A stretch of DNA of 64,000 nucleotides from Cyrtodaria siliqua (taxonomy: Eukaryota > Mollusca > Bivalvia > Adapedonta > Hiatellidae), in the NCBI GenBank assembly GCA_037043455.1, contig JAWPHD010001342.1:267673-331672 (forward strand), written 5' to 3'. The translations under genes were made by a program, and so were the position numbers. Under the pieces are notes generated by a model, which was given only the letters and a program-made list of their open reading frames with translations, searched no databases and had not been told where the DNA came from. This document shows positions 12,220 to 63,908 of the stretch, piece after piece. Each line of letters opens with the position of its first letter. Position 1 is the stretch's first letter.

Positions 12220-12472
12220 CTTTAGCCTTGCCACTGTAACCCGCAACTCAGAAACATAAATCCCCTGATATAAAACTGTCCTCCACATAAATGTCTCAAC
12301 CAGCACGCCAATCAAAGCCAAAGAGGTCCAAATTCTGTCTACCCGAAACTCCATGGAGGTGAAGGACACCGTTATAAAGATAACCAGAGTCATTAGTTTT
12401 GTATAGACATCATAGCATATACAGGTCTGGGCTTGCAGCATTGCTTTCTTTATGACCCATCGATACTCATGC
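12220..12472 (-). CDS. ABCC4: Variable TM5-TM6 exon, copy A (ABCC4-like)
   Basis: A 253-nt exon (1 + 84 codons) that starts in phase 2 and ends in phase 0. It begins HEYRWVIKKAMLQAQTC (cytoplasmic end of TM5), has a hydrophobic helix LMTLVIFITVSF, a short outer loop, a second helix WTSLALIGVLVETFMW, and ends ELRVTVARLK. The pattern fits TM5, the third extracellular loop and TM6 of ABCC4. Acceptor gttacag, donor gtaact. It is the copy nearest the constant linker exon and belongs to no close subfamily in the array. Confidence 0.87.
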
Positions 12473-12785
12473 CTGTAACATTGCAACCAAGACTACCAAT
12501 AAGCAATGAAAATGTTGTTTTCTGTAAAGGGAGATAATTAACGACTCACTCCACATGTATTAAAGGGAGATAAATGAGACTCGCTTCACAATCATGTACT
12601 CACTATTTACGTGTACTCACCCAGTAATCCTCTATTACTAAAAACATCGCGTCAAACTGACTTCATTCCATCAAGGGAAATAATCATAAAAAGCTATCAA
12701 GGGAGATAACAATATCTAAATCATCTCCATACAAGGGAGATGATAAAATATAGTTTAACCTCTATCAATCTGCTTTAAGTTAGTA

Positions 12786-13278
12786 TACAGTCGTATCCGA
12801 TTGAGCATGGAATTACATCGACTGCGTCAATGGATGTTTGACATGTCAGACATATAAACAACCGATGACGCCGCCCAATAAAATGGAAGTACTCAGTGAA
12901 CTGAAACTAGTTGACACCTCCCACTCGCCTACAAGTCTCACGTGACAAAAATCGATATCATAACGTAACACTGCGCACAATTCACCTTTGTGCTATTATA
13001 TAGATGTTGTGGCTTGCGAAAATAACCGGGCTTCCCCAGCAGTGATGGAACTTACTAATTTCCAAATAGCATATTCAAGGTATATCTATGGAGCAATTCT
13101 ACTGTAATGCAGGCTGGTTTATATGCCTAAAGCAAAGCACATCTCTGTAGGATTCAAATCGAGATTTATTTTCACACTTGTGTTTCCACTCAGCCAGCGA
13201 GGAAAGGGGCGGAGTTGAGCATGCGATGACATTGCGTCAGTATGAACGTAATTCCATGCTCAATCGTGAATGGCTGTA
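12786..13278. mobile_element. TIR element (~0.49 kb)
   Basis: The left end is tacagtcgtatccgattgag and the right end, read on the minus strand, is tacagccattcacgattgag. Both continue into a perfect inverted match over cgattgagcatggaattac (19 bp). The body is non-coding. The TA-flanked tacag termini suggest a cut-and-paste MITE; the superfamily is undetermined. Confidence 0.75.
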
Positions 13279-14069
13279 TCTGTTTACCACTTGACAATAA
13301 CGTCATTGTTTTTCATTTACAAATAGTCCTGCAGTGCAACATGGGAAAGTGGAGGAGAGAGTAAATAAAAACAATTATTACTGAGGAACAGGAAAAGCAA
13401 ACATCAAGCAAGGTCATCTTTGAAGCGGGAAGACAGCAACCCTATTGGTTTCGACTACAATACAACATCACTGCAGCTGCAATAAGCTCAAGAGGTTATA
13501 CAAGTTCTTTTTATTTTAAGCAATTGCAAACAAGCTTGAAAATGGATTTATCTTAATTTTATTGAAGTATACACATGTACATAGCTACGCCGAGTCTCAG
13601 TAGAATTTTCAGAAAGTACCAAAAATTAAAGTAGGCATTTTAATGGAATTTCAAATAAAATATCACTAAAATCAACTTGAATTGATAAACTGACTCAAAA
13701 GGTCATGCGTAGACTGAAAAAGGGAATGCAAGAAAAGCAGGAAACTGTGATGCCATGTAGAAATCAAAATATTTTGTTTGGACACGGGGCATGCCCCTGG
13801 ACCCCTTAGTAATGGATTTGCCTATTGTCATTTTGGAACTCAGTAAAAACAGGCTCTCTGGAAGTCGTCTTAAATGTATGGACACATGTAAATTGTTACA
13901 AACAAATCATAATGCCATATGCTGGAGCTCCATATAGCCCCATTTGGTAATATGATTTGCTTCCCTTTAACGGTAAATGCAGAGTTGTTATTTCCAATTT
14001 ACTGGGAGCAAATTATGGTCTTCTTATCTCAAAAGCTGAAGAGTTTTTAAGGAGATGTACTGTTTGGTA

Positions 14070-14134
14070 AGTCGGAGGCTATCATCATACTGAAGGACGA
14101 ATACCTGGTCATTAGTATGCACTCATACTCCTTC
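14070..14134 (-). pseudogene. Relic of a variable exon (5' end only)
   Basis: The first ~65 bases of a B/C/D-type exon, with its acceptor (ttcag before base 14134) and the upstream intron to ~14320, match the D copy at 16320-16560. Homology then stops abruptly at gtcggaggct. The helix-coding remainder and the donor are absent, so it cannot act as a complete exon. Confidence 0.8.
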
Positions 14135-14422
14135 CTGAAATAGGGAGCAACAACACAATAGCCAATTATAAAATGTGGCATAAAATTTTCAAAGATGTCC
14201 CATTTCTCAATGACATCCTGTTACACAGAAATGTCCATGGTTGATTGATAACCATCCTCGAAGCACAAAGCACAAAGTTCAAAATAAATATGGCATCATA
14301 ATTATACGTAACAATAAGCAAAGGGAATGAATACAGAAGCATGTGTTGTATTGCAAAAGCCAGAATCCACGAATACTCGCCACCCTTTGCGAATGTGACT
14401 TTAATAAATGTATCATAATATT

Positions 14423-14758
14423 GTCATTTGGAATGTCTGCTGATGCACGTGCCATATTGCCAAATGGAATACCTACTCATGCATGTGCAATCTTGCCAAA
14501 TGGAATGTGCCATATTGCCATTTGGAATGTGGTATATTGCCAAATGGAATGCCTACTTATGCATGTGCAATCTCGCCAAATGGAATGTGCCATATTGCCA
14601 TTTGGAATGTGGTATATTGCCAAATGGAATGTCTACTCCTGCATGTATAATCTTGCCAAATGGAATGTGGCATATTGCCATTTGGAATGTATCATATTGC
14701 CAAATGGAATGTCTACTCATGCACATACAATCTTCCCAGATGGCATGAGCCAGGAATA
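14423..14758. repeat. Self-complementary minisatellite, block 1
   Basis: Units of ~40 bp alternate gccaaatggaatg with gccatttggaatg. Because ccaaatgg and ccatttgg are reverse complements, neighbouring units can pair. Related blocks stand between exon copies at 15168-15390 and 15795-15998. The block opens several forward frames with CQMECL-type periodic peptides, which are not genes. Confidence 0.85.
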
Positions 14759-14896
14759 ATTTCTAGTCATGCAGGGCAGCTGATTGGATATGTATTAACT
14801 TATTTTAAGGACTAAATTCCCTTTTCCATCTACAATGAACATGCGAGGGTATACGTTTTTCTGAATACACATTTTTTCTGCAACCATCATTCATAC

Positions 14897-15146
14897 CTCT
14901 AGTCGACCCAATGTCACCCTCATATCTGTTATAGGGAACACTTGATACAGAATACCATAATGTATCACGGCCACAAATCGATAAACCAACACGATGCAAG
15001 TAAACAAAAAATTTGATCGGAGCGGAGTGCTGAGAAGGACTGGTGGTAGAATCATGAAGAAAGTCAGCACGCGTGGGTACACGTCAAGGGCTACCATCAT
15101 ACTGAAGGACGAAAACCTGGCCTTTAATATGCACTCATACTCCTTC
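14897..15146 (-). CDS. ABCC4: Variable TM5-TM6 exon, copy B (ABCC4-like)
   Basis: A 250-nt exon (1 + 83 codons, phase 2 to 0). It begins KEYECILKARFSSFSMMV, has hydrophobic stretches VLTFFMILPPVLL and FLFTCIVLVYRFVAVI, and ends DMRVTLGRLE. Acceptor ctatttcag, donor gtatga. It is nearly identical to copies C and D but one codon shorter (RFVAVI where C has RFVMNVI). Its upstream intron carries the minisatellite at 15168-15390 within ~20 bases of the acceptor. Confidence 0.88.
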
Positions 15147-15167
15147 CTGAAATAGGGAGGAACAAAT

Positions 15168-15390
15168 GGAGCCAAATGGAATGCCTACTCATGCATGAGC
15201 AATCTTGCCAAATGGAATGTGGCTTATTGCCATTTGGAATGTATCATATTGCCAAATGGAATGTCTACTCATGCATGTACAATATTGCCAAATGGAATGT
15301 GGCATATTGCCATTTGGAATGTATCATATTGCCAAATGGAATGTCTACTCATGCATATACAATCTTCCCAGATGGCATGAGCCAGGAATA
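15168..15390. repeat. Self-complementary minisatellite, block 2
   Basis: Same ~40-bp unit family as 14423-14758. It lies between the donor of copy C (15529) and the acceptor of copy B (15146), so it forms part of the tandemly duplicated intron. Confidence 0.85.
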
Positions 15391-15528
15391 ATTTCTAGTC
15401 ATCCAAAGCAGCTGATTTGATATGCATTAACTTATTTTAAGGACTAAATTCTAATTTCCATCTACAATGAACTTGCGAGGGTATACATTTTTCTGAATAT
15501 ACATTTTTTCTGCAACCATCTTTCGTAC

Positions 15529-15781
15529 CTCTAGCCGACCCAATGACACCCTCATATCTGTTATACGGAACACTTGATACAGAATGCCATAATGTATCAC
15601 GTTCATCACAAATCGATAAACCAACACGATGCAAGTAAACAAAAAATTTGGTCGGAGCGGAGTGCCGAGAAGGACTGGTGGTAGAATCACGAAGAAAGTC
15701 AGCATGCGCGGGTACACGTCGAAGGCTATCATCATACTTAAGGACGAATACCTGGCCTTTAGTATGCACTCATACTCCTTC
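15529..15781 (-). CDS. ABCC4: Variable TM5-TM6 exon, copy C (ABCC4-like)
   Basis: A 253-nt exon (1 + 84 codons, phase 2 to 0), beginning KEYECILKARYSSLSMMI and ending DMRVSLGRLE. Acceptor ctatttcag, donor gtacga. It differs from copies B and D by scattered substitutions, some of them in the helices (for example VILPPVLLGTPLRPNF against MILPPVLLSTPLRSNF in B). The frame is open in all three copies despite recent duplication. Confidence 0.88.
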
Positions 15782-15794
15782 CTGAAATAGGGAG

Positions 15795-15998
15795 AAACAA
15801 ATGGAGCCAAATGGAATGCCTACTCATGCATGTACGATCTTGCCATTTGGAATGTATCATCATATGGAATGTCTACTCATGCATGTACAATATTGCCAAA
15901 TGGAATGTGGCATATTGCCATTTGGAATGTATCATATTGCCAAATGGAATGTCTACTCATGCATATACAATCTTCCCAGATGGCATGAGCCAGGAATA
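15795..15998. repeat. Self-complementary minisatellite, block 3
   Basis: Same unit family as block 1, between the donor of copy D (16130) and the acceptor of copy C (15781). Confidence 0.85.
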
Positions 15999-16129
15999 AT
16001 TTCTAGTCATGCAGGGCAGCTGACTTGATATGCATTAACTTATTTTAAGGACTATATTCTAATTACAATGAACTTGCGAGGGTATACATTTTTCTGAATA
16101 TACATTTTTTCTGCAACCATCATTCATAC

Positions 16130-16382
16130 CTCTAGCCGACCCAATGACACCCTCATATCTGTTATACGGAACACTTGATACAGAATGCCATAATGTATCA
16201 CGGTCAACACAAATCGATAAACCAACACGATGCAAGTAAACAAAAAATCTGGTCGGAGCGGAGTGCCGAGAAGGACCGGTGGTAGAATCATGAAGAAAGT
16301 CAGAACGCGTGGGTACACATCGGTGGCTATCATCATACTGAAGGACGAATACCTGGCCTTTAGTATGCACCCATATTCCTTC
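16130..16382 (-). CDS. ABCC4: Variable TM5-TM6 exon, copy D (ABCC4-like)
   Basis: A 253-nt exon (1 + 84 codons, phase 2 to 0), beginning KEYGCILKARYSSFSMMI and ending DMRVSLGRLE. Acceptor ctatttcag, donor gtatga. It is the upstream-most of the D-C-B tandem set. Its acceptors are spaced 601 bp (D to C) and 635 bp (C to B), which gives the duplication unit size. Unlike B and C it has no minisatellite immediately upstream. Confidence 0.88.
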
Positions 16383-16639
16383 CTGAAATAGGGAGCAACT
16401 ACACAATAGCCAATTTTAAAATGTGGCATACAATTTTCGAAAATGTCCCATTTCTCAATGACATCCTGTTACACAGAAATGTCCAAGGCTGATTGATAAC
16501 CATCACCGGAACACAAAGCACAAGGTTCAAAATAAATGTGGCATCATAATTATACATAACAATAGACAAAGGGAATGAATACAAAAGCATGTGTTGCATT
16601 GCAAAAGCCAGAATATACGAAAACTCGCCATGCACCCTT

Positions 16640-17425
16640 CAATATCACTACTAATTTTCAGGAAGTAGTCACTACTTTCAGAGGAGTAGCCGCTTCAAGT
16701 TTTCATTATATAACTCTTATTTTCAACAAGGATCAACATCATGTCATGCTGATCATTTTAAAAAAAGTCCCATATTAATATCACTACTAATTTTCAGGAA
16801 AAAATCACTACTTTCAGCGGAGTAGTCTCTACAAGTTTTCATTATATAACTCTAATTTTCAACAAGGATAAACATCATGTCATGCTGATCATTTTAGAAA
16901 ATGTCCCATATCAATATCACTTACAGTTTTCAAGAAGTAGTCTCTACAAACTTATTTTTTAAAAATCTGTTTTTAGCCGTGGCTGCCATCTTGTATTTCT
17001 GGCCGAACTTAAATGTGTTAGAATCAATTAGACATCAAGAGCAACATTCCTGCGAAGTTTCATGAAAATCTGTCAAGTACTTTCAAAGAAGTAGTCGCTA
17101 CAAGTTTTTACTATATAACTCTATGTAAACAAAGATGGCCACTGGCAGTCATGTTTAACGTCAAATCAAAACGATTTTCGACAAGGACCAACATCATGTC
17201 ATGCTGATCATTTTAGAAAAAGTCCCATATCAATATCACTTATAGTTTTCAAGAAGTAGTCGCTACAAACTTATTTTTAGCTTTTGTGGCCATTTTGGAT
17301 TTCACATCAACATGAATATTTGCTAGGATCAACTAGACTTCATGGGCAACATTTCTGTTTAGTTTCATGAAAATCCATCTAGTAGGACTGACGGATGGTT
17401 GGACAGACTTGGCATAAGCTCTGCC
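16640..17425 (+). mobile_element. Tandem-cored dispersed element, end-degraded copy
   Basis: At least two internal repeat units (gtagtcgctacaagtttt, atcatgtcatgctgatcatt, gaaaaagtcccatatcaata) followed by a mutated 3' end (ggcataagctctgccaatac). The canonical 5' start is missing. Confidence 0.7.
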
Positions 17426-17572
17426 AATACGAGCTTAAGTGACGTCATTGACGTTAAGTGATGTCAATCACGCTCGCTTACCAACTTAAAAATGAAACTA
17501 ATTAACGCTACTATAAATAAACACAAATCATGTCAAAATAATGTTATTAAAATAAAATTCTACTGTAGTGGA

Positions 17573-20935: not shown

Positions 20936-21478
20936 ACCCTACTGTCATCCCATTAAAACAGGACAGTGTAAATAAAGAAATCCCCGCCATGATCTAATCT
21001 CTAACCAACAAGGCAGCATCAATAAGCAATATAAGTAAAACACAAATATGCTCGTGTAAATATAATATAAAAAACAATAGCCTAGAAAGCCACAATGAAG
21101 GTACTCAATGACTTGGCAGAAGCCAGAGCAGCAAGAGAATAAACCATTAAGGGCACGACAAGAAAGATCATAGACAAACATCAAACGCCACCGTCCCAAT
21201 GGGCTTTAGGTAGGCGTCATCATAGGGTCCACAGCCTGTCCGGTCATCGTTCAATTAAAGAGGAAAGCATAGTGGCGAACTGTAAAAGGGTCCACCACCA
21301 AGCATGCAGTACGTTGCAAAATGATAGGGTCATAACCTCTTTTGATAAACTTTTTAACAAGTTTAACAAAGATAGTATGAAAGTGATCATGACCAAGAAT
21401 CTTTATAAATCACATCACCATAGAAGTCAGGTTGTGATATTCCTTGTCGCAGAAGAGTCCTTAAATTACTTTTAATAT

Positions 21479-21622
21479 GGCGATCGAAGCAACGGCAGAC
21501 TCGTGTACAGATTCTTTGGCCGCAGTCCACCACCGGCAAAGACCACCGCAGATACATCAATCGTGGGCCAAGAACCCAATTACAGGCAGCAAAAGCTGAA
21601 AGAACTTTCGATCGCCATATAA
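21479..21622 (-). pseudogene. Relic of a variable exon (F-like, frameshifted and truncated)
   Basis: It encodes WRSKVLSAFAACNWVLGPRL as copy F does, then loses 13 nt (the gtt-rich stretch of the first helix) and shifts frame. It ends before TM6, with no donor and no phase-correct acceptor. The relic is bounded by atatggcgatcg on the left and its inverse cgatcgccatat on the right. It lies 412 bp from intact copy F and is a dead tandem duplicate of it. Confidence 0.88.
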
Positions 21623-22033
21623 ACACTGGAATTACTGTGGCGACAGGGCTAATTAACGAACATGACCCGAGACATTGTGTCCATATACAATTAAAACAAC
21701 TTTGGAGAAGACTGAATTACAAATTACCCAAGTGAAACTTTGGACAACATTTTGGCAAGGATTGACACATGAACAGACAGGGGTATATTCAATATATGCC
21801 CTTCCACCATTCTTCAAATAGCGGGGTCATAAAAAGCATTATGTTTTCTCTCAAGTTATGTTTGTTAATATACGAATAATGACAAAATCTTTTTCCAGGT
21901 TCAAATTTTTGTAACCATAAAAATTGTACATCAATCATTCAGTTTGTTTACATAAAAGTTACATAGACAACAAATACAAAAGAACTGTGCCAACTCAAAC
22001 GGTGAACTCATTCATTTCTCATGTAATACTCAC

Positions 22034-22283
22034 TACTACTCTAGACACCGCCGCTAACGCTTCACTCATGAACTGAACATTCATCGTCATTACTCCAATC
22101 ATGGTCAGCGCTATCAAATGAAGCAACGGCAGACTCGTGTACAGATTCTGTGGCCGCAGTCCATCACCGGCAAAGACCACCGCAACAACAACAACTAGAT
22201 ACATCAATCGTGGGCCAAGAACCCAATTACAGGCAGCAAGAGCTGAAAGAACTTTCGATCGCCATATAAACTGTTTCTCTCTC
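22034..22283 (-). CDS. ABCC4: Variable TM5-TM6 exon, copy F (ABCC4-like)
   Basis: A 250-nt exon (1 + 83 codons, phase 2 to 0). It begins REKQFIWRSKVLSALAACNW, has helices LMYLVVVVAVVFAG and YTSLPLLHLIALTMIGVM, and ends ALAAVSRVV. Acceptor attttcag, donor gtgagt. It forms a subfamily with copy H (39002-39254), sharing the IWRSKVLSALAAC start, the VLGPRLMYL motif and the gtgagt donor. Its last residues are RVV rather than the RIQ/RLE of most copies. Confidence 0.88.
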
Positions 22284-25031: not shown

Positions 25032-25281
25032 CTCAATTCTGTTCATGCTGACTTCCATCGCTATGATGTTCCGAACTCCCATTTGCATGAAGCGTAGGAT
25101 GCACAATCGCACTGTGTTAAAAGCGGCCATCATAATATACATGGAGGCGGACCTAAAGTGTGGCTGCGTCACGACCAAAACGAGTATGACTGAGTACAGA
25201 CACAGATGTCTGCCATTGGTGGTCACCGTCTCCCAAACAGCCAGCAGGTGGTTAACTTTACGTATCTGTCGCAGTTCATTC
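25032..25281 (-). CDS. ABCC4: Variable TM5-TM6 exon, copy G (ABCC4-like)
   Basis: A 250-nt exon (1 + 83 codons, phase 2 to 0). It begins NELRQIRKVNHLLAVWETV, has helix LCLYSVILVLVVTQ and a second segment MYIMMAAFNTVRLCILRFM, and ends AMEVSMNRIE. FNTVRL matches the conserved (Y/F)xxVRLT-like block of ABCC4 TM6. Acceptor gtatacag, donor gtaaat. It lies between the two members of the F/H subfamily but is not closely related to either. Confidence 0.87.
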
Positions 25282-26340: not shown

Positions 26341-29300
26341 GCACCTGTATTATACTACGCACCATTATTACTGTATGCACCATTAATACTATGCACCCGT
26401 ATTACTATGCACCTGTATTACTATGTACCTTTATTAATATGCACCTGTAATACTATGTATGAGTATTACTATGCACCTGTATTACTAAGCATGCAAATTA
26501 CTATGCACCTGTCTTACTAAGCATGCAAATTACTATGCACCTGTATTACTATGTATGTGTATTACTATGTATGTGTATTACTATGTATGTGTATTACTAT
26601 GCACCTGTATTACTATGCACCTGTATTACTATGCACCTGTATTACTATGTGCCTGTATTACTATGCACCTGTATTACTATGTATGTGTATTATTATGCAC
26701 CTGTATTACTATGTATGTGTATTACTATGCACCTGTATTACTATGTATGTGTATTACTATGTATGTGTATTACTATGTATGTGTATTACTATGCACCTGT
26801 ATTACTATGTATGTGTATTATTATGCACCTGTATTACTATGCATGTGTATTACTATGCACCTGTATTACTATGTATGTGTATTACTATGCACCTGTATTA
26901 CTATGCACATGTATTACTATGCACATGTATTACTATGTGCCTGTATTACTAGGCACCTGTATTATTATGCACCTGTATTACTATGTATGTGTATTACTAT
27001 GCACCTGTATTACTACGCACCTGTATTACTATGCACCTGTATTACTATGCACCTGTATTACTAGGCACATGTATTCCTATGCACCTGTATTATTATGTAT
27101 GTGTATTACTATGCACCTGTATTACTATGTATGTGTATTACTATGCACCTGTATTACTATGCATGTGTATTACTATGCACCTGTATTACTAGGCACCTGT
27201 ATTACTATGCATGTGTATTACTATGCACCTGTATTACTATGTATGTGTATTACTATGCATCTGTATTACTATGTATGTGTATTACTATGCTTGTGTATTA
27301 CTATGCACCTGTATTACTATGTATGTGTATTACTATGCACCTGTATTACTATGTATGTGTATTACTATGCACCAGTATTACTATGTATGTGTATTTCTAT
27401 GCACCAGTATTACTATGTATGTGTATTTCTAAGCACCTGTATTACTATGTACGTGTATTACTATGCAACTGTATTACTATGTATGTGTATTTCTAAGCAC
27501 CTGTATTACTATGTATGTGTATTACTATGCACCTGTATTACTATGTATGTGTATTACTATGCACCTGTATTACTATGTATGTGTATTACTATGCACCTGT
27601 ATTACTATGCACCTGTATTACTATGTATGTGTATTACTATGCACCTGCATTACTATGCACCTGTATTACTATGTATGTGTATTACTATGCACCTGTATTA
27701 TTATGCACCTGTATTACTATGTATGTGTATTACTATGCACCTGTATTACTATGCACCTGTATTACTATGTATGTGTATTACTATGCACCTGTATTACTAT
27801 GTATGTGTATTTCTATGTACCTGTATTACTATGTATGTGTATTACTATGCACCTGTATTACTATGTATGTGTATTACTATGCACCTGTATTACTATGTAT
27901 GTGTATTACTATGCACCTGTACCTGTATTACTATGTATGTGTATTACTATGCACCTGTATTACTATGCACCTGTATTACTATGTATGTGTATTACTATGT
28001 ATGTGTATAACTATGCACCTGTATTACTATGTATGTGTATTACTATGTATGTGTATTACTATGATCCTGTATTACTATGTATGTGTATTACTATGTATGT
28101 GTATTACTATGCACCTGTATTACTATGTATGTGTATTACTATGCACCTGTATTACTATGTATGTGTATTACTATGCACCTATATTACTATGCACCTGTAT
28201 TACTATGTATGTGTATTACTATGCACCTGTATTACTATGTATGTGTATTACTATGTATGTGTATTACTTAGCACCTGTATTACTATGTATGTGTATTACT
28301 ATGTATGTGTATTACTATGTATGTGTATTACTATGCACCTGTATTACTATGCACCTGTATTACTATGTATGTGTATTACTATGCACCTGTATTACTATGT
28401 ATGTGTATTACTATGTATGTGTATTACTATGCACCTGTATTACTATGTATGTGTATTACTATGTACCTGTATTACTATGTATGTGTATTACTATGCACCT
28501 GTATTACTATGTATGTGTATTACTCTGCACCTGTTTTACTATGCACCTGTATTACTATGCACCTGTATTACTATGTATGTGTATTACTATGCACCTGTAT
28601 TACTATGTATGTGTATTACTATGTATGTGTATTACTATGTATGTGTATTACTATGAACCTGTATTACTATGTATGTGTATTACTATGCACCTGTATTACT
28701 ATGTATTTGTATTACTATGCACCTGTATTACTATGCACCTGTATTACTATGTATGTGTATTACTATGCACCTGTATTACTATGCACCTGTATTACTAGGC
28801 ACATGTATTACTATGCACCTGTATTACTATGTATGTGTATTACTATGCACCTGTATTACTATGTATGTGTATTACTATGCACCTGTTTTACTATGCACCT
28901 GTATTACTATGTATGTGTATTAATATGCACCTGTATTACTACGTATGTGTATTACTATGCCCCTGTATTACTATGTATTTGTATTACTATATATGTGTAT
29001 TACTATGCACCTGTATTACTATGTATGTGTATTACTATGTATGTGTATCACTATGCACCTGTATTACTATGTATGTGTATTACTATGCACCTGTATTACT
29101 ATGTATGTGTATTACTATGTATGTGTATTACTTAGCACCTGTATTACTATGTATGTGTATTACTATGTATGTGTATTACTATGCACCTGTATTACTATGC
29201 CCCTGTATTACTATGTATTTGTATTACTATGTATGTGTATTACTATGCACCTGTATTACTATGTATGTGTATTACTATGTATGTGTATTACTATGCACCT

Positions 29301-31165
29301 GTATTACTATGTATGTGTATTACTATGCACCTGTATTACTATGTATGTGTATTACTATGCACCTGTATTACTATGTATGTGTATTACTCTGCACCTGTTT
29401 TACTATGCACCTGTATTACTATGTATGTGTATTACTATGTATGTGTATTACTATGCACCTGTATTACTATGTATGTGTATTACTATGCACCTGTATTACT
29501 ATATATTTGTATTACTATGCACCTGTATTACTATGCACCTGTATTACTATGTATGTGTATTACTATGCACCTGTATTACTATGCACCTGTATTACTATGC
29601 ACCTGTATTACTAGGCACATGTATTACTATGTATGTGTATTACTATGCACCTGTATTACTATGTATGTGTATTACTATGCACCTGTATTACTATGCACCT
29701 GTATTACTATGCATGTGTATTACTATGCACCTGTATTGCTATGCACCTGTATTACTAGGCACCTGTATTACTATGCATGTGTATTACTATGCACCTGTAT
29801 TACTATGCATGTGTATTACTATGCACCTGTATTACTATGCACCTGTATTACTATGCATGTGTATTACTATGCACCTGTATTACTATGCACCTGTATTAAT
29901 ATGCATGTGTATTACTATGCACCTGTATTACTATGCACCTGTATTACTATGCACCTGTATTACTATGTATGTGTATTACTATGCACCTGTATTACTATGC
30001 ACCTATATTACTATGTATGTGTATTACTATGTACCTGTATTACTATGTATGTGTATTACTATGCACCTGTATTACTATGTATGTGTATTACTATGCACCT
30101 GTATTACTATGTATGTGTATTTCTATGCACCAGTATTACTATGTATGTGTATTTCTATGCACCTGTATTACTATTTATGTGTATTACTATGCACCTGTAT
30201 TACTATGTATGTGTATTACTATGCACCTGTATTACTATGTATGTGTATTACTATGCTCATGTATTACTATGTATGTGTATTACTATGCACCTGTATTACT
30301 ATGCACCTGTATTACTATGTATGTGTATTACTATGCACCTGTATTACTATGCACCTGTATTACTATGTATGTGTATTACTATGCACATGTATTACTATGT
30401 ATGTGTACTACTATGCACCTGTATTACTATGCACCTGTATTACTATGTATGTGTATTACTATGCACCTGTATTACTATGCACCTGTATTACTATGCACCT
30501 GTATTACTATGTATGTGTATTACTATGCACCTGTATTACTATGCACCTGTATTACTATGTATGTGTATTAATATGCACCGGTATTACTATGTATGTGTAT
30601 TTCTATGTACCTGTATTACTATGTATGTGTATTACTATGCACCTGTATTACTATGTATGTGTATTACTATGCACCTGTATTACTATGCACCTGTATTACT
30701 ATGTATGTGTATTACTATGCACCTGTATTACTATGTATGTGTATTACTATGCACCTGTATTACTATGTATGTGTATTACTATGCACCTGTATTACTATGC
30801 ACCTGTATTACTATGTATATGTATTACTATGCACCTGTATTACTATGCACCTGTATTACTATGTATGTGTATTAATATGCACCGGTATTACTATGTATGT
30901 GTATTTCTATGTACCTGTATTACTATGTATGTGTATTACTATGCACCTGTATTACTATGTATGTGTATTACTATGCACCTGTATTACTATGCACCTGTAT
31001 TACTATGTATGTGTATTACTATGCACCTGTATTACTATGTATGTGTATTACTATGTATGTGTATTACTATGCACCTGTATAACTATGCACCTATATTACT
31101 AAGCATGCAAATTACTATGCACCTGTATTACTTTGTACCTTTATTAATATGCACCTGAATTACTA
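26341..31165 (+). repeat. 4.8-kb minisatellite of a 16-bp unit with two alternating states
   Basis: Close to 300 head-to-tail units of two main types, attactatgcacctgt and attactatgtatgtgt, with rarer intermediates (gcatgtgt, gtacctgt, gcacatgt, gcaccagt). Register is kept almost throughout. Both edges carry a diverged variant (ctaagcatgcaaattacta). Since 16 = 1 mod 3, three successive units return to the same frame, and neither type contains a stop in any forward frame. This creates overlapping open frames up to 737 codons of periodic YYYAPVLLCMCITMH-type peptide. They have no start context, no complexity and no homology, and I do not call them genes. Confidence 0.97.
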
Positions 31166-37110: not shown

Positions 37111-38704
37111 AAACAAGAGGTCAATGACCTTGAAGCTCTACTGATTGATTTTGATTTCAGGAAGTAGTCGCTACAAACTGGTTTTTTGAAAATCTATTTT
37201 TAGCTGTGGCGGCCATCTTGAATTTCCAGCCGACCTGAAATTTTGCCAGGATCAATTAGACATCAAGAGCAACATTCCTGTGAAGTTTCATGAAAATCCG
37301 TCAAGTAGTTTCAGAGGAGTAGTCGCTACAAGTTTTCATTATATAACTCTATGTAAACAAAGATGGCCACTGACAGCCATGTTTAACATTGAATCAAAAT
37401 AATGTTCGACTCGGATAACCATCATGTCATGCTGATCATTTTAGAAAAAGTCCCATATCAATATCTCTTATAGTTTTCAAGAAGTAGTCGCTACAAACTT
37501 ATTTTTTAAAAATCAATTTTTAGCCATGGCGGCCATCTTCAATTTCCGGCCGACTTGAAATTTTGCTAAGATCAATTAGACATCAAGAGCAACATTCGTG
37601 TGAAGTTTCATGAAAATCCGTCAAGTAGTTTCAAAGAGTAGTCGCTACAAGTTATCATTATATAACTCTATGTAAACAAACATGGCCACTGGCAGCCATG
37701 TTTAACGTCGAATCAAAATAATGTTCGACTTGAATAACCATTATGTCATGCTGATCATTTTAGAAAAAGTCCCATATCAATATCACTTATAGTTTTCAAG
37801 AAGTAGTCGCTACAAACTTGTCTTTTGAAAATCTATTTTTAGCCATGGCGGCCATCTTGAATTTCCGGCCGACCTGAAATTTTGCAAGGATCAATAAGAC
37901 ATCAAGAGCAACATTCGTGTGAAGTTTCATGAAAATCCGTCAAGTATTTTCAGAGGAGTAGTCGCTACAAGTTTTCATTATATAACTCTATGTAAACAAA
38001 GATGGCTACTGGCAGCCATGTTTAACGTCGAATAAAAATAATGTTCGACTCGGATAACCATCATGTCATGCTGATAAATTTAGAAAAAGTCCCATATCAA
38101 TATCTCTTATAGTTTTCAAGAAGTAGTCGCTACAAACTTATTTTTTAAAAATCTATTTTTAGCCGTGGCGGCCATCTTGAATTTCCGGCCGACCTGAAAT
38201 TTTGCTAGGATCAATTAGACATCAAGAGCAACATTCCTGTGAAGTTTCATGAAAATCCGTCAAGTAGTTTCAGAGGAGTAGTCGCTACAAGTTTTCATTA
38301 TATAACTCTATGTAAACAAAGATGGCCGCTGGCAGCCATGTTTAACGTCGAATCAAAACGATTTTCGACAAGGACCAACATCATGTCATGCTGATCATTT
38401 TAGAAAAAGTCCCATAGCAATATCCCTTAGAGTTTTCAAGAAGTAGTCGCTACAAACTTGTTTTTTAAAAACCTATTTTTAGATTTGGCGGCCATCTTGG
38501 ATTTCACATCTACATGAATTTTTGCTAGGATCAACTAGATCTACTTCATGGGCAACATTTCTGTAAAGTTTCATGAAAATCCATTCAGTAGTTTCAGAGG
38601 AGTAGTCGCTACAAAAAAAAGTTAACGGACGGACAGACGGACGGACGACGGACACCGCACCACGGCATAAGCTCTGCTGATCTCTGATCAGTAGAGCTAA
38701 AAAT
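37111..38704 (+). mobile_element. Tandem-cored dispersed element (pearl/HINE-like), four to five internal repeats
   Basis: 5' end aaacaagaggtcaatgacct. Internal units of ~335-345 bp share caagaagtagtcgctacaaa, ggcggccatcttgaatttc, acatcaagagcaacattc, aaagatggccactg and atcatgtcatgctgatcat. After the core come ggacggacagacgg, accacggcataagctctgct and a strong terminal hairpin (gctctgctgatc / gatcagtagagc) directly followed by ctaaaa. Hairpin + CTAA and an internal tandem core are features of non-autonomous Helitron/Helentron-type (HINE, pearl) elements known from bivalves; assignment to that class is inference. Other large copies: 43845-45109, 48101-49268, 51528-53240, 59029-60932. Confidence 0.8.
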
Positions 38705-39001: not shown

Positions 39002-39254
39002 TATTACTCTAGTAACTGCTGCGAACGCTTCACTTGCGTACTGCACCATCAAAGTTATAACGCCCATCACAGTCTGTGCTATCAAAAACAACAACGGGAG
39101 ACTCGTGTACAGATTCTTCACGCGTAGCCCCTCGCCGGCGAAGGCAGTCACAACAACAACAACAACTAGATACATCAATCGAGGGCCTAGGACCCAAGTA
39201 CATGCAGCAAGAGCTGAAAGAACTTTTGATCGCCATATAAAGTGTTTCTCACAC
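39002..39254 (-). CDS. ABCC4: Variable TM5-TM6 exon, copy H (ABCC4-like)
   Basis: A 253-nt exon (1 + 84 codons, phase 2 to 0). It begins CEKHFIWRSKVLSALAACTW, has helix LMYLVVVVVVTAFAG and second helix YTSLPLLFLIAQTVMGVI, and ends AFAAVTRVI. Acceptor tttttcag, donor gtgagt. It is the sister of copy F despite 17 kb and copy G lying between them, so duplication was not strictly neighbour by neighbour, or later insertions separated them. Confidence 0.88.
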
Positions 39255-43844: not shown

Positions 43845-45109
43845 AAACAAGAGGTCAATGACCTTGAAGCTCTACTGATTGATTTTGATTTCAGGAAGTA
43901 GTCGCTACAGACTTATTTTTTGAAAATCTATTTCTAACCGTGGCGGCCATCTTGAATTTCCGGCCGACCTGAAATTATGCTAGGATCAATTAGACATTAA
44001 GAGCAACATTCCTGTGAAGTTTCATGAAAATCCGTCAAGTAGTTTCAGAGGAGTAGTCGCTAGAAGTTTTCATTATATAACTCTATATAAACAAAGATGG
44101 CCGCTGGCAGCCATGTTTAACGTCAAATCAAAACGATTTTCAACAAGGACAAACATCATGTCATACTGATCATTTTAGAAAAAGTCCCATATCAATATCT
44201 CTTATAGTTTTGAAGAAGTAGTCGCTACAAACTTATTTATTTTAAATCTATTTTTAGCTGTGGCGGCCATCTTGAATTTCCGGCCAACCTGAAGTTTTTC
44301 TAGGATCAACTAGACATCAAGAGCAAAATTCCTGTGAAGTTTCATGAACATCCGTCAAGTAGTTTCAGGAGTAGTCGCTACAGGTTTTTACTATATAACT
44401 CTATGTAACCAAAGATGGCCACTGGCAGCCATGTTTAACGTCGAATCAAAATAATTTTCCACAAGGATCAACATCATGTCATGCTGATCATTTTAGAAAA
44501 AGTCCCATATCAATATCACTTATAGTTTTCAAGAAGTAGTCGCAACAAACTTATTTTTTAAAAATCTATTTTTAGCTGTGTCGGCCATCTTGAATTTCTG
44601 GCAGATCTGAAATTTTGCTAGGATCAATTAGACATCAAGAGCAACATTCCTTTTAAGTTTCATGACAATCCGCCAAGTAGTTTCAGAGAAGTAGTCGCTA
44701 CAAGTTTTTACTATATAACTCTATGTAAACAAAGATGGCCGCTGGCAGCCATGTTTAACGTTGAATCAAAACGATTTTTGCCAAGGATCAACATCATTTC
44801 ATGCTGATCATTTTCGAAAAAGTCCCATATCAATATCACTTATAGTTTTCAAGAAGTAGTCGCTACAAACTTGTATTTTAAAACTTTATTTTTAGCTTTG
44901 GCGGCCATCTTGGATTTCACATCAACATGAATTTTTGCTAGGATCAACTAGACTTTATGGGCAACATTTCTGTAAAGTTTCATGAATATCCATCCAGTAG
45001 TTTCAGAGGAGTTGTCGCTACAAATAAAAGTTTACGGACAGACAGACGGACGACGGATGCCGCACCACGGCATAAGCTCTGCTGATCTCTGATCAGTCGA
45101 GCTAAAAAT
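43845..45109 (+). mobile_element. Tandem-cored dispersed element, three to four internal repeats
   Basis: Start aaacaagaggtcaatgacct, end gatcagtcgagctaaaaa. Same unit blocks as 37111-38704. Confidence 0.8.
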
Positions 45110-48100: not shown

Positions 48101-49268
48101 TAACAAGAGGTCAATGACCTTGAAGCTTACTGATAGATTTTTGATAGCTAGGTCAACATTCCTGTGAAGTTTCATGAAAATCCATCAGGTAGTTTCATAG
48201 GAGTAGTCGCTACAAGTTTTCATTATATAACTCTATGTAAATAAAGATGGCCGCTGGCGGCCATGTTTAATGTCAAATAATTTTTGACAAGGATCAACAT
48301 CATGTCATACTGATCATTTTAGAAAAAGTCCCATATCAATATCACTTATGGTTTTCAAGTAGTAGTCGCTAAAAATTTATTTATTTTAAATCTATTTTTA
48401 GCCGTGGTAGACATTTTGAAATTTTCGGTCAGCCTGAAATTTTTCTAGGATCAACTAGACATCAAAAGCAACATTCCTGTGAAGTTTCATGAACATCCGT
48501 CGAGTAGTTTCAGAGGAGTAGTTGCTACAAGTTTTTACTATATAACTCTATGTAAACAAAGATGGCCACTGGCAGCCATGTTTAACGTTGAATCAAAATA
48601 GTGTTCGACTAGGATCAACATCATGTCATGCTGATCATTTTAGAAAAAGTCCCATATCAATATCACTTATAGTTTTCAAGAAGTAGTCGCTACAAACTTA
48701 TTTTTTAAAAATCTATTTTTAGCTGTGGCGGCCATCTTAAATTTCTGGCCGACTGAATTTTTGCTAGGATCAATTAGACATCAAGAGCAACATTCCTGTA
48801 AAGTTTCATGAAAATCCGCCAAGTAGTTTCAGAGGAGTAGTCGCTACAAGTTTTTACTATATAATTCTATGTAAACAAAGATGGCCACTGGCAGCCATGT
48901 TTAACGTCGAATCAAAACGATTTTCGACAAGGACCAACATCATGTCATGCTGATCATTTTAGAAAAAGTCCCATATCAATATCACTTATAGTTTTCAAGA
49001 AGTAGTCGCTACAAACTTGTATTTTAAAAATCTATTTTTAGCTTTGGCGACCATCTTGGATTTCACATCAACATGAATTTTTGCTAGGATCAACTAGACT
49101 TCATGGGCAACATTTCTGTTAAGTTTCATAAATATCCATCCTGTAGTTTCAGAGGAGTAGTCGCTACAAATAAAAGTTTACGGACAGACAGACAGACGGA
49201 CGGACAGACGGACGCCGGACGCCGCACCACGGCATAAGCTCTGCTGATCTCTGATCAGTCGAGCTAAC
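48101..49268 (+). mobile_element. Tandem-cored dispersed element, three internal repeats
   Basis: Start taacaagaggtcaatgacct, end gatcagtcgagctaacaa. Internal units match the family. Confidence 0.8.
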
Positions 49269-50854: not shown

Positions 50855-51246
50855 ATAATAAGTTTCTTGTTGTTTTTTTAAACCGATCTAGCTACGCTCC
50901 AGGGCGCTATATAATCTCACCATGACAACAGGACATAACGAGCAATCAGTGTGTTTACGCTATGTCAATATCATTTTTAAAGAGTTTTTAAAGAAAGTTT
51001 GGATGCACCGTACAGAAATTTGATCAATATACCCGTACAGATGCTCACAACTAATATAGCAACATTGTGGTGAAGATATTCACCGTTGTATAATGTCTCT
51101 CGGACACAATGAGACAGACCACACAGTCCGATTCTTTCCGACAAAACTCAAGCTCATGAAGATGGACCTTACATAGACACCCGTTCGTTCGTACAAGTTT
51201 TATAATTTCATGGCTACAAAAAAAAGTGTGAGAACTTCCAGTTTAC

Positions 51247-51496
51247 CTGAATTCTATCGAAAGTGACGCTCATTTCTGCTCGATTCATGACCAATGCCTC
51301 CAAAGCATACATAAACAATCTGTTCACCGAAACAAACCACATGAGTGTAGTGAAGAGATCCGCTGATACCATATGAATGCTTGAAAGATTGAGACTGATC
51401 AGGGTAACACATAAGGCAAGATGCGTTCCGACCCAACCAAAACCAATACGAACTGACAAGACGTAGGCTCTTCTGCGTACAAATCGTATCTGTATT
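51247..51496 (-). CDS. ABCC4: Variable TM5-TM6 exon, copy I (ABCC4-like)
   Basis: A 250-nt exon (1 + 83 codons, phase 2 to 0). It begins IQIRFVRRRAYVLSVRIGFG, has helix HLALCVTLISLNLS and TM6-like LFTTLMWFVSVNRLFMYAL, and ends MSVTFDRIQ. DRIQ is the canonical MRP4-type end of TM6. Acceptor ttttgtag (the split codon is completed by A, still Arg), donor gtaaac. It pairs with copy J. A dispersed element (51528-53240) begins only ~31 bases upstream of its acceptor. Confidence 0.88.
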
Positions 51497-55015: not shown

Positions 55016-55024
55016 TAACCATCT

Positions 55025-57300: not shown

Positions 57301-57550
57301 CTGAATTCTTTTGGCTGTCACGTCTACTTCCCCTCGAGTTCTAACCAATGCCGGCAATGCCCACAGCAAAACTCTGTTTGCCAGAACAAACAAGGTCAGA
57401 CCCGTGAAGACGTTTGCAGTTGTCAAATGGCTGTTTGAAACATGGAGACTGATCATGGTGACACAGAAGCTTAAGTGTTTGCCACAAAAACTCAAACTCA
57501 TCCACACCGACCTTAGATAGGAGGACCTGAGTACAAACTTGACCTGCAGT
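57301..57550 (-). CDS. ABCC4: Variable TM5-TM6 exon, copy J (ABCC4-like)
   Basis: A 250-nt exon (1 + 83 codons, phase 2 to 0). It begins LQVKFVLRSSYLRSVWMSLS, has helix HLSFCVTMISLHVS and TM6-like VFTGLTLFVLANRVLLWAL, and ends VDVTAKRIQ. Acceptor attttgtag, donor gtatta. It shares with copy I the tag-type acceptor, the gtcacca tract upstream of it, the FxxxxxxLxxCVTxISL pattern and the RIQ end, so I and J are paralogues of one earlier duplication. Confidence 0.88.
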
Positions 57551-57639
57551 CTACAAAATAACATGTGCATGGTGACAAATCTCTTATTCAGTGTTGTTGT
57601 TATTATCCAATATTAGTCTGCACTTTATCTGCATTTTCT

Positions 57640-59028: not shown

Positions 59029-60932
59029 AAACAAGAGGTCAATGACCTTGAAGCTCTACTGATTGATTTTGATTTCAGGAAGTAGTCGCTACAAACTGTT
59101 TTTTTGAAAATCTATTTTTAGCCGTGGTGGCCATCTTGAATTTCCGGCCGACCTGAAATTTTGCTAGGATCAATTAGACATCAAGAGCAACATTCCTGTG
59201 AAGTTTCATGAAAATCCGTCTAGTAGTTTCAGAGGAGTAGTCGCTACAAGTTTTCATTATATAACTCTATGTAAACAAAGATGGCCACTGACAGCCATGT
59301 TTAACATTGAATCAAAATAATGTTCGACTCGGATAACCATCATGTCATGCTGATCATTTTAGAAAAAGTCCCATATCAATATTGCTTATAGTTTTCAAGA
59401 AGTAGTCGCTACAAACTTATTTTTTAAAAATCTATTTTTAGCCATGGCGGCCATCTTGAATTTCCGGCCGACCTGAAATTTTGCTAAGATCAATTAGACA
59501 TCAAGAGCAACATTCGTGTTAAGTTTCATGAAAATCCGTCTAGTAGTTTCAGAGGAGTAGTCGCTACAAGTTTTCATTATATAACTCTATGTAAACAAAG
59601 ATGGCCACTGACAGCCATGTTTAACATTGAATCAAAATAATGTTCGACTCGGATAACCATCATGTCATGCTGATCATTTTAGAAAAAGTCCCATATCAAT
59701 ATTGCTTATAGTTTTCAAGAAGTAGTCGCTACAAACTTATTTTTTAAAAATCTATTTTAAGCCATGGCGGCCATCTTGAATTTCCGGCTGACCTGAAATT
59801 TTGCTAAGATCAATTAGACATCAAGAGCAACATTCGTGTTAAGTTTCATGAAAATCCGTCGAGTAGTTTCAGAGGAGTAGTCGCTACAAGTTATCATTAT
59901 ATAACTCTATGTAAACAAACATGGCCACTGGCAGCCATGTTTAACGTCGAATCAAAATAATGTTCAACTTGAATAACCTTCATGTCATGCTGATCATTTT
60001 AGAAAAAGTCCCATATCAATATCACTTATAGTTTTCAAGAAGTAGTCGCTACAAACTTGTTTTTTGAAAATCTATTTTTAGCCATGGCGGCCATCTTGAA
60101 TTTCCGGCCGACCTGAAATTTTGCAAGGATCAATTAGACATCAAGAGCAACATTCGTGTGAAGTTTCATGAAAATCCGTCAAGTAGTTTCAGAGGAGTAG
60201 TCGCTACAAGTTTTCATTATATAACTCTATGTAAACAAAGATGGCCGCTGGCAGCCATGTTTAACGTCGAATCAAAACGATTTTCGACAAGGACCAACAT
60301 CATGTCATGCTGATCATTTTAGAACAAGTCCATTATCAATATCTCTTATAGTTTTCAAGAAGTAGTCGCTACAAACCTATTTTTTAAAAATCTATTTTTA
60401 GCCGTGGCGGCCATCTGAATTTCCGGCCGACCTGAAATTTTGCTAGGATCAATTAGACATCAAGAGCAACATTCCTGTGAAGTTTCATGAAAATCCGTCA
60501 AGTAGTTTCAGAGGAGTAGTCGCTACAAGTTTTCATTATATAACTCTATGTAAACAAAGATGGCCGCTGGCAGCCATGTTTAACGTCGAATCAAAACGAT
60601 TTTCGACAAGGACCAACATCATGTCATGCTGATTATTTTAGAAAAAGTCCCATAGCAATATCCCTTAGAGTTTTCAAGAAGTAGTCGCTACAAACTTGTT
60701 TTTTAAAAACCTATTTTTAGATTTGGCGGCCATCTTGGATTTCACATCTACATGAATTTTTGCTAGGATCAACTAGACTTCATGGGCAACATTTCTGAGA
60801 AGTTTCATGAAAATCCATTCAGTAGTTTCAGAGGAGTAGTCGCTACAAAAAAAAGTTTAGGGACAGACGGACGGCGGCAGACGCCGCACCACGGCATAAG
60901 CTCTGCTGATCTCTGATCAGTAGAGCTAAAAA
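59029..60932 (+). mobile_element. Tandem-cored dispersed element, five internal repeats
   Basis: Start aaacaagaggtcaatgacct, end gatcagtagagctaaaaa. The order of internal variants closely follows the copy at 37111-38704 (for example ttcgactcggataaccatca, then tcgacaaggaccaacatca), with one extra unit, suggesting recent common ancestry. Confidence 0.85.
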
Positions 60933-61329: not shown

Positions 61330-61800
61330 CGCCAGCTACTAACGATTTTCATGTTTTCTTGCATACCGGATGTTGGCGCGTGAATTTTACCTCGATGCTA
61401 GGGTGAGATGGAAATATCTAGCCCCGTTAAATGTATTCTAAGGTATGCAAGAAAACTCATATACATGAAACGTCATGACATCATGTTGGTGGCGTCGCCT
61501 TATTTTAGCATAAAATCTATCCACATAAGATAGGGAAATCTCACCCTCGGGATCAGAACTGCAACCACGACCTCGGTAGATGGAGCCTCATCCCTGGTTA
61601 CAGTTCTGACCCTCGGGTGGGATTTCCCTATCTAACATGGATACTCATGATGGATTCTTATATTCTTGCAAATGTTTTTTGAATGCAGCAACCAATAGCA
61701 AAGATATAGCCTGCACAAGATTTGGTATTTAACTCAGCACAGCTCGTCCCTGGTTACAATTCTGACCCACGGGTGAGATTCCCCTACCTCACAAGGATAC
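61330..61800. mobile_element. Two small foldbacks
   Basis: gttttcttgcatacc (near 61355) and ggtatgcaagaaaac (near 61442) form one inverted pair. gatagggaaatctcaccctc (61530) and gagggt...gggatttccctatc (61610-61640) form another, with a partial direct copy near 61740-61800 (ctggttacaattctgaccca). Confidence 0.55.
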
Positions 61801-62079
61801 TCATGATGGACTCATATATTCTTATATTTAGCAGAATTGTACCAATACAGCTTTATTTAAACAAACAGAACTTTGAAGGAAAGCAATGCTTACAACAAAC
61901 TGCTGTTCCTCAAGATTAAAAGTGATGTCTGGCAATGTGCCTGATAACTCATGGTCGAAGTTTATTGAATATTTTGTGAGTACAGCAATTTCCTTTTACA
62001 CTCAGGTCATGAAATCAAATGTGTTTTTTTTCTTCATATCTATTTCAATTCCATGCAATTACTGCAGATACGATTTGGA

Positions 62080-62870
62080 TGTGATTATATGTGAAAGCTT
62101 TTCACCAATAACTTGTAATGTAAAGACTAAAGAAACTGTGGTATATGCTGCATCCACCACGAGTTACTGCTTGGCGATTTGGATGTGATTCTTTTCACCA
62201 ATAACTTGTAAAGACTAAAGACACTGTGGTATATGCTGCATCCACTAGGAGTTACTGCTTGGAAATTTGGATGTGATTCTTTTCACCTATAACTTGTAAT
62301 GTAAAGACTAAAGAAACTGTGGTATATGCTGCATCCACCACGAGTTACTGCTTGGCGATTTGGATGTGATTCTTTTCACCAATAACTTGTAAAGAATAAA
62401 GACACTGTGGTATATGCTGCATCCACTAGGAGTTATTGCCTGGTGATTTGGATGTGATTCTATGTGAAAGTTTAATCTTTTCATCAATAACTTGTAGTGT
62501 AAAGACTAAAGACACTGTGGTATATGCTGCATCCACCAAGAGTTACTGCTTGGTGATTTGGATGTGATTCTACATGAAAGCTTAATCTTTTCACCAATAA
62601 CTTGTAGTGTAAAGAATAAAGACCAGTGGTATATGCTGCATCCACCACGAGTTACTGCTTGGCGATTTGGATGTGATTCTATTTGAAAGTTTAATCTTTT
62701 CACCAATAACTGACTAAAGAAACTGTGGTATATGCTGCATTCACTAGGAGTTACTGCTTGGCAATTTGGGTGTGACTCTATGTGAAAGTTTAATCTTTTC
62801 ACCAATAACTTCTAGTGTAAAGACTAACGCTGCATCCACTAGGAGTTACTGCTTGGTAAATTTTGTATTT
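62080..62870 (+). repeat. Minisatellite, ~100-130-bp unit, about eight copies
   Basis: Repeated blocks are gtggtatatgctgcatccac, gagttactgcttggcgattt, ggatgtgattct, cttttcaccaataacttg and taaagactaaagaaact. Two unit lengths occur depending on an optional atgtgaaagtttaat segment. It opens reverse frames that are not genes. Confidence 0.9.
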
Positions 62871-63300
62871 TTATGAATTGATTAAATAAGAAATTATTTA
62901 CCTATATTATCTAACATCTCAAACAGTAAAACATCATAAACACCAGGATAACGTGTCATTATCGACAGAAAGCGCATCTGCGTCAAGAAGGTGAGCAAAC
63001 TTGGGCTTTAAACTTTGCAATCTCTTAACACTAAACACAATACTGAAATGGCTTGATTTTTTCAAGCTAAACTTCAATATTTACGAATTTCATGTAACAA
63101 AGTTATTAATACTTTGATTAAAAGGTCTACTAGATGACAGAGTTGTCCTTTCTGTAATTAGTTGTAGCCCCTTTTTGTACAAAACACATTGAGATATATC
63201 TGGAATATTACGTGGCATTACGTGTGTATAATAGTGTACTATAGGCAATTTTTTGATTATGCGTTTCTTTTTTCTTTCAGGATATAATTTAATTAATATG

Positions 63301-63491
63301 AATTGAATTGGATTTTATAGTCGCACCAACAGCTAAGGTCATATGGCGACTTTTCAGCTTCCACTGGTGGAGGAAGACCCCAGGTGCCACTCCCGGCAAT
63401 TTTTAAGCACGGGCGAGCACCTGGATAGAACCACCGATGTTCCGCAAGCCAGCTGGATAGCTTTCTCACATAAAGATTCCTAGGCCCCTGA
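63301..63491 (-). mobile_element. 5'-truncated SINE with 15-bp target duplication
   Basis: Same body as 9115-9382 (ttatagtcgcaccaacagct, gtggaggaagaccccagg, gcaagccagctggatagct) but without the tRNA-like head. Flanked by the direct repeat aatttaattaatatg at 63286-63300 and 63492-63506. Loss of the 5' head with intact target duplication fits incomplete reverse transcription. Confidence 0.88.
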
Positions 63492-63658
63492 AATTTAATT
63501 AATATGTACTTTGATCACAAAACAAATACTTCTCAAAACAATATAGCTCCCTACGATTATAATAAAAACTCGCCGACTCATCGAGTTTTAAAAAACAAAA
63601 ATTACACTCAGCATGAGTCCCTGAATTTCGTGCACTTGGACCTTTCACATGAACTAAC

Positions 63659-63908
63659 CTGAAATCTGTTTAGGGTGACGTTAGTGTCGGCCGAAAATTG
63701 AATGGCAAAAGGCATGTGTAGCACAGTAGTCAAATTCACAGCCTGTAGTAGAAGGATCGTCATAAACACCACCTCTGGCTGAAGTCTCCCGCCCGAGTAC
63801 ACAAAACAAACGAACATTAAAAACGAGATCAGCTTGACCGCTACAAAGAATGGCCCCACATTTAGGGCCCTAATGTATCCAAGCACTTTAACTTTTTTGG
63901 CTTCAGCC
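63659..63908 (-). CDS. ABCC4: Variable TM5-TM6 exon, copy K (ABCC4-like, most canonical)
   Basis: A 250-nt exon (1 + 83 codons, phase 2 to 0). It begins AEAKKVKVLGYIRALNVGPF, has helix KLISFLMFVCFVYSG, a short loop GRLQPEVVFMTILL and TM6 LQAVNLTTVLHMPFAIQF, and ends NVTLNRFQ. The PFAIQF block is the best match in the array to vertebrate MRP4 TM6, so this may be the ancestral or default version. Acceptor ttgtacag, donor gttagt. It is the first of the array in transcription order and lies near the window edge. Confidence 0.9.

Follow-up and report, generated by a model that had tools for sequence, protein, structure and literature searches.

An exon array in an ABCC4-type gene

The window analysed here, 64,000 nucleotides of DNA from the bivalve Cyrtodaria siliqua, covers positions 267673-331672 of contig JAWPHD010001342.1 (C1342 below), one of the 26,948 contigs of the 2.88 Gb genome assembly, and holds, on the minus strand, part of an ATP-binding cassette (ABC) exporter gene of the ABCC4 (MRP4) type with ten tandem exons for one and the same protein segment, transmembrane helices 5 and 6 (TM5-TM6). 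Read along the minus strand, these exons are 63659-63908 (type Z, the most MRP4-like copy), 57301-57550 and 51247-51496 (type V, 46% identical to each other), 39002-39254 (type U), 25032-25281 (type W), 22034-22283 (type U, 76% identical to copy 39002), the triplet 16130-16382, 15529-15781 and 14897-15146 (type T, 87-90% identical) and 12220-12472 (type S); the letters were assigned in this analysis to groups formed by identity, which is 12-27% between types. All ten, which a preliminary description of this DNA had taken for intact alternative exons, were confirmed to the base, each with one open frame, an AG acceptor and a GT donor. Every copy is 250 or 253 nucleotides long, is entered in phase 2 and left in phase 0, and codes for 83 or 84 residues once its first base has completed the preceding codon; the segment corresponds to about residues 305-387 of human MRP4 (in a tblastn search, copy 63659-63908 matches residues 302-387 at 33% identity). 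One mark of a mutually exclusive cluster, tandem homologous exons of near-equal length with compatible splice sites and phase, is found in ten of ten copies. The type T triplet belongs to a tandem unit of ~600 bases, introns included, whose repeats are ~91% alike (window 14417-16400), and reads as a recent expansion.

A profile from which the copy in question and its close kin had been removed recovers each of the ten exons (E 2.6e-12 to 6.7e-06, 23-44 bits). The next-best open reading frame (ORF) listed is a decayed copy in eight of these runs (25.7-28.2 bits) and ORF 14050-14220 in the two runs with type U held out (14.3 bits). The decayed copy, of type U and also on the minus strand, lies at 21484-21623, is split across two frames (E 1.8e-06 and 1.9e-05) and is 75% identical in DNA to copy 39002. 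Possible relics were seen at 14068-14133, inside the ORF just named (E 0.014), and at 51057-51122 (E 0.085). The predicted fold of the hairpin has helices at residues 2-17, 19-38 and 44-81 (mean predicted local distance difference test score, pLDDT, 80), and its top-ranked match in the PDB is bovine MRP4, at an E of 0.46 that is not evidence by itself.

The constant exons, on the same strand, comprise a linker (7205-7315, phase 0, about residues 388-423 of MRP4) and four exons of the first nucleotide-binding domain (NBD1), at 5006-5095 (with Walker A), 2167-2358, 1642-1823 (with the signature, LSGGQ, and Walker B) and 576-672, after which the rest of the gene continues left of the window. These five chain in frame and are each matched once in the window. 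A tblastn search with human MRP4 as query detects them together with several of the copies and gives no convincing match to TM1-TM4 or to a further NBD anywhere from 12.5 to 64 kb. The end of NBD1, the second transmembrane domain (TMD2), NBD2 and the C-terminus have one match each to the left (C1342:248189-266385). Whether each copy might come with NBD exons of its own was checked, and no copy in the window has them, which supports the earlier claim of one ABCC4-type gene with a single NBD/TMD2 exon set and many alternative TM5-TM6 exons. Altogether, the gene shows the ABCC4 architecture TMD1-NBD1-TMD2-NBD2 with the NBD motifs present, TM1-TM4 being found only on the second contig described below, and is of the ABCC4 and not of the ABCC1 type. 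In a PDB search with copy 22034 plus the linker, MRP4 accounts for eight of the ten matched sequences, the other two being ABCC9/SUR2, and the top named mollusc homologues, among the matches listed, are mostly titled ABCC4-like or MRP4-like. A homology search with a 120-residue query of exon plus linker returned 41 candidates, none of them at E 0.01 or better.

A second contig with TM1-TM4 exons

A genome search with seven of the copies yields 17 rows. Twelve of them belong to C1342, where each of the ten copies gives one and the decayed copy two; the other five come from a second contig, C5121, of which 130,000 of 170,305 bases were examined. There, TM1-TM4 exons (MRP4 residues 21-304), found once each in the examined bases, run from 62580 down to 54801 and are followed on the same strand by four type Z copies (30624-30873, 27674-27923, 16455-16704 and 7418-7670), all with AG/GT sites and phase 2-0. 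In its right part, C5121 is collinear with window -1636 to 13524 and has a type S copy (147106-147358, the counterpart of 12220-12472) together with the linker and NBD1 exons; here the two contigs are 75-95% alike over a stretch of 18 kb. No type T copy was found on C5121 from 147358 to 170000. Parts of the last 10 kb of the window are 79-93% alike to C5121 as well, with pieces matching C5121:14117-16798 at 81-93%, and copies 63659 and C5121:16455 may be counterparts. The preliminary description had supposed that more copies might lie to the right; C1342 stops at the right edge of the window, 92 bases beyond copy 63659-63908, and the four further type Z copies are on C5121. Over both contigs, the intact TM5-TM6 copies number fifteen.

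On one strand of C5121, the 3' exons of one ABCC4 gene lie upstream of the TM1-TM4 exons of another; this contig may represent a second gene in tandem, a different haplotype or a chimeric assembly join. The exon sets of the two contigs imply that the genome has two or more ABCC4 genes or haplotypes; taken together, the contigs show both flanks of an array. Between C1342 and C5121, the constant linker and NBD1 exons differ by a dS of 0.020 and a dN of 0.006 over 219 codons. There may be ABCC4 paralogues elsewhere in the genome.

The reading frame and single inclusion

The frame was examined by joining the TM4 exon of C5121 to window copies and to the linker 7205-7315. The TM4 exon ends in the AG of a split codon, which every one of the ten copies completes, through its first base, to Arg, and inclusion of a single copy leaves the frame open in all ten cases. 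If no copy is included, a stop codon falls within the linker; for pairs of copies joined in genomic order, a stop is reached by the end of the linker in 45 of 45 combinations. Since none or two copies would lead to a premature stop, the frame alone would back up single use. Homologous proteins give an indirect indication: among the best 120 of 4138, 117 have one TM5-TM6 match, the exceptions being P0032 and P0023, with two full-length matches, and P0028, with one partial and one nearly full match, in each case hundreds of residues apart. Mutually exclusive use is likely and has good support from the frame and from the exchanged blocks in other molluscs. The suggestion in the preliminary description that the system might be combinatorial was not supported, because one variable site was found, and isoforms would therefore add, not multiply; nor was its suggestion of a xenobiotic defence, for which the enrichment at the pocket residues described below is at most suggestive.

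Exchange of this block in the protein models of other molluscs

Of 7978 candidates scored in a search with the joined transporter, 4138 proteins reached E 1e-50 or better; the 120 highest-ranking ones were listed, and 36 of these were aligned and classified. The top matches among those listed are bivalve and gastropod ABCC4-like proteins, the closest from Dreissena, Mercenaria, Mya and Ruditapes, and would by themselves place the genome among bivalves. Mercenaria X3 illustrates the pattern: it is 86% identical to our model in TM1-TM4 and 81% in the linker and NBD1, and only 20% in the TM5-TM6 block, which is 48% identical to the type W copy 25032 (Mya_c, 43%). Matches to type U (37-44%; in a comparison of 34 homologues, copy 39002 has 37-46% to Mya_b, scallop and oyster proteins) include Mya_b, Ylistrum, Argopecten, Saccostrea, Ostrea and M. 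gigas, and those of type Z (51-64%) include Dreissena X4 (60% to copy 63659), Mya X3, Pecten X1 and X2 and C. virginica X1; nine of the 36 homologues, Ruditapes, Haliotis rufescens and Physella among them, match no copy above 31%. In a tree of the segments, the support is 0.99 for the grouping of Z with Dreissena and Mya, 0.97 for that of W with Mercenaria and Mya_c, and 0.96 for that of U with Mya_b. Types T, S and U fall together with segments from oysters, scallops and two gastropods (0.96), and the wider U groups reach 0.66 and 0.78. Two further ABCC4-like proteins of Mya arenaria, P0013 and P0015, are listed on contigs that differ in length from that of Mya X3, have TM5-TM6 segments nearest to types U and W, and may be paralogues with one fixed type.

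Comparison of the homologues with each other leads to the same block. In all 15 mollusc pairs compared, block identity is below that of both flanks: ten pairs have 16-25% in the block versus 76-95% in the flanks, and the other five, apparently of one type, 52-72% versus 79-95%; for mouse and salmon, the values are 76% and 67-70%, respectively. When four of the 15 pairs were scanned whole, the longest stretch of low identity was at 301-385 (15-21% inside, 84-92% outside), and low windows occur near the C-terminus as well in three of the four, so this trough is the longest and not the sole one; the mouse/salmon scan has short low windows elsewhere and none in 301-385. All 21 differences between Pecten X1 and X2, two models listed on a contig of the same length, are within 300-383. 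These comparisons support the preliminary reading in so far as the block is also exchanged in the protein models of other molluscs while the flanks are conserved.

Selection on the copies

Three pairs of copies show purifying selection, with ratios of nonsynonymous to synonymous divergence (dN/dS; 95% bootstrap intervals in parentheses here and below) of 0.29 (0.15-0.54) for the type U pair 22034/39002, 0.48 (0.26-0.83) for the type V pair 51247/57301 and 0.27 (0.08-0.79) for 63659/C5121:16455. Within 1500 bases on either side, DNA likeness in the type U pair comprises the exon, ~30 bases beyond it, a 45-base upstream piece and the decayed copy.

The substrate pocket

So could the exchanged helices change what is exported? 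PMC10202912 names F324 in TM5 and L363, L367 and F368, the leucines being in TM6, among the residues that help shape the prostaglandin E1 (PGE1) pocket of human MRP4, with F324, L363 and L367 also named for sulindac, and all four fall within the span of the alternative exon. In eight window copies (the type T triplet being counted once), the L363 column reads E, A, L, L, Q, R, R, L and the L367 column R, Y, G, R, G, Y, W, L, with an alignment gap close by and a second alignment placing one or two residues otherwise. The four pocket positions exceed the rest of TM5/TM6 in chemical classes (P 0.003 with eight copies, 0.013 with seven) and in residue entropy (P 0.04 and 0.08), and not significantly in the spread of hydropathy (P 0.08 and 0.09). 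Among 28 mollusc segments the pocket enrichment has P 0.055-0.087, and Arg385 is invariant in all 28. These values suggest a diversification of the pocket and do not prove it. A change of substrate would be the most likely purpose of the variants.

Interpretation and alternatives

We give a probability of roughly 0.86 to the interpretation that these are ten alternative TM5-TM6 exons of one ABCC4-type gene, likely mutually exclusive, that yield a family of exporters with exchangeable pocket helices. Under this interpretation, each copy would be spliced in some cell or condition, and every transcript would receive one of them by mutually exclusive splicing, joined to the TM4 exon and to the linker, with the reading frame and nonsense-mediated decay presumably backing up this exclusivity. 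The isoforms would share one ATPase engine, a reading that, as far as sequence can tell, is right, and would differ in the helices of the pocket; because TM5 and TM6 carry the binding-pocket residues of human MRP4, the variants would also differ in the substrates exported.

Several findings weigh against this interpretation. The splicing of the copies is a prediction from genomic sequence and protein models. Pairing of the docking/selector kind, sought between 18-nucleotide windows of the 3' intron (7316-12219, the only intron scanned) and 160-nucleotide flanks of eight copies on both sides, did not rise above six shuffles. The enrichment at the pocket is weak, with P values of 0.003-0.09 for the window copies, and depends on the alignment near the gap, and no significant helical periodicity of variability was detected in TM5 or TM6. 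Types T, S and V are without a clear counterpart among the 36 classified homologues, the best match being Ruditapes at 31% for V and Biomphalaria at 29% for T. A search with six concatenated copies found nothing at E 0.001 among 7994 scored candidates; relatives of types W and U being known from the other search, this one must have missed true relatives and is weak evidence of absence. Cross-species pairs of protein models could derive from paralogues, and Pecten is the sole same-species pair. Finally, for the remaining comparisons, dN/dS is compatible with 1: within the type T triplet it is 0.43 (0.16-1.09) for 14897/16130, an interval that reaches past 1, and 0.66 for both 14897/15529 and 15529/16130; it is 0.58 (0.14-2.45) for 12220/C5121:147106, 0.61-0.86 for copy 63659 against the three other type Z copies and 0.71-1.75 among those three.

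The alternative that deserves most thought accepts that the array is real and used and holds that the variants serve to adjust folding, trafficking or coupling, or that they are near-equivalents for different tissues, with substrates unchanged. That the pocket enrichment is no more than suggestive speaks for this explanation, and the tissue-specific roles of tandem duplicated exons in other genes reported in PMC9741552 would fit it; however, an identity of 12-27% between types seems, in our judgement, beyond what fine tuning needs, and the pocket positions vary in charge and size (E, A, L, Q or R in the L363 column), so we consider it unlikely. Much less probable is that only the MRP4-like copy 63659 functions and that the rest are decaying exon duplicates. 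A decayed copy does exist, and the dN/dS of the newest copies is compatible with 1, but the type U and V pairs show purifying selection, type W or U segments occur in protein models from Mercenaria, Mya, scallops and oysters that match in their other parts, and all ten copies retain the open frame, the splice sites and the Arg junction codon.

Could the array be a product of the assembly, with haplotypes or paralogous arrays stacked in one contig? The 2.88 Gb in so many contigs, the many satellites and the likeness of C5121 to C1342 (at one end 75-95% over 18 kb, at the other 79-93% in parts of the last 10 kb of the window) invite the thought; yet types with so little identity cannot be alleles, and the same exchange is found in the models of other molluscs, which makes such an artefact very improbable. 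The idea that the copies belong to several separate, interleaved transporter genes draws on C5121, where constant 3' exons precede another TM1-TM4 set, so that there is more than one ABCC4 gene or haplotype, but the 51 kb that contain the ten copies gave no match to a further constant exon, and the ten share one phase and fit one linker; this idea we regard as scarcely credible. Both the separate-gene and the pseudo-array explanations were accordingly rejected, in view of the lack of matches to constant exons between the copies, the shared phase, the open frames and the purifying selection.

Beyond the interpretation of one gene with alternative pocket helices, it is conceivable, if somewhat doubtful, that molluscs possess a modular exporter, with one ABCC4 engine, ten hairpins in this array and fifteen over two contigs, in which some types have been kept since before clams split from scallops and oysters, and in which the choice of exon rather than the number of genes sets export. 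If the interpretation of exchangeable pocket helices is true, nature has provided a panel of exporters identical save for a hairpin that bears four known pocket residues of human MRP4, and the encoding of substrate choice in ABC exporters becomes directly testable with one construct and many natural inserts. Filter feeders could then widen their efflux repertoire via splicing, and a single reference isoform of a mollusc ABCC4 may hide much variety.

Relation to known exon arrays

Drosophila MRP (dMRP, CG6214) is said to be, after Grailles 2003 and Yue 2017, an MRP1/ABCC1-type gene with variable internal exons. It resembles the present gene in having an internal tandem cluster, from which one exon is chosen, in an ABCC exporter, and differs in being of the ABCC1 and not the ABCC4 type. 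The fly gene has eight tandem alternative exons in D. melanogaster (PMC6071210), variable exons of CG6214 are mentioned with reference to Grailles 2003 (PMC4234516), and the fly and worm events fall in one common region of the structure (PMC9741552, figure legend). Two papers also describe independent origins of tandem exon arrays in metazoan MRP genes of several phyla, molluscs included (PMC6071210, PMC7434440), and mrp-1 arrays are named for helminths, annelids and mollusks in one of them (PMC7434440). C. elegans mrp-1 is likewise an ABCC gene with alternative exons of equal length (PMC7434440), although of the MRP1 type and described as of independent origin. The mollusc models titled 'ABCC4-like isoform Xn' (Pecten, Mercenaria, Mya, Dreissena, Haliotis, oysters) are of the same family and have the same exchanged 83-residue block, and unlike the exons described here they are database protein models under the names of their sources. 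Insect Dscam1 shares the principle of many alternative exons per pre-mRNA with one used at once, according to PMC6071210 and PMC9013439, whereas it has four multiplying clusters and docking/selector pairing; here there is one cluster, with no pairing found. A description of an exon array in ABCC4, or in the mollusc models just named, was not found among the papers listed by the literature searches. Precedent is closer than the preliminary description had assumed, with MRP1-type arrays, including those of molluscs, in print and the mollusc 'ABCC4-like' isoform models already in public databases; this kind of array is already known from MRP1-type genes, and the ABCC4 version appears to be new to print as far as searched.

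Other elements in the window

A tRNA scan gave no match. At 21171-21231 on the minus strand, in an intron ~250 nucleotides downstream of the decayed copy, there is a match to the Rfam family SECIS_1 (38 bits versus a gathering score of 35), likely due to chance, though odd. A minisatellite of ~150 copies of a 32-base unit lies inside the array at 26374-31165, and blocks of a ~320-base satellite, present on C5121 too, are found at 37155-38614, 43889-45023, 48154-49169 and 59073-60848.

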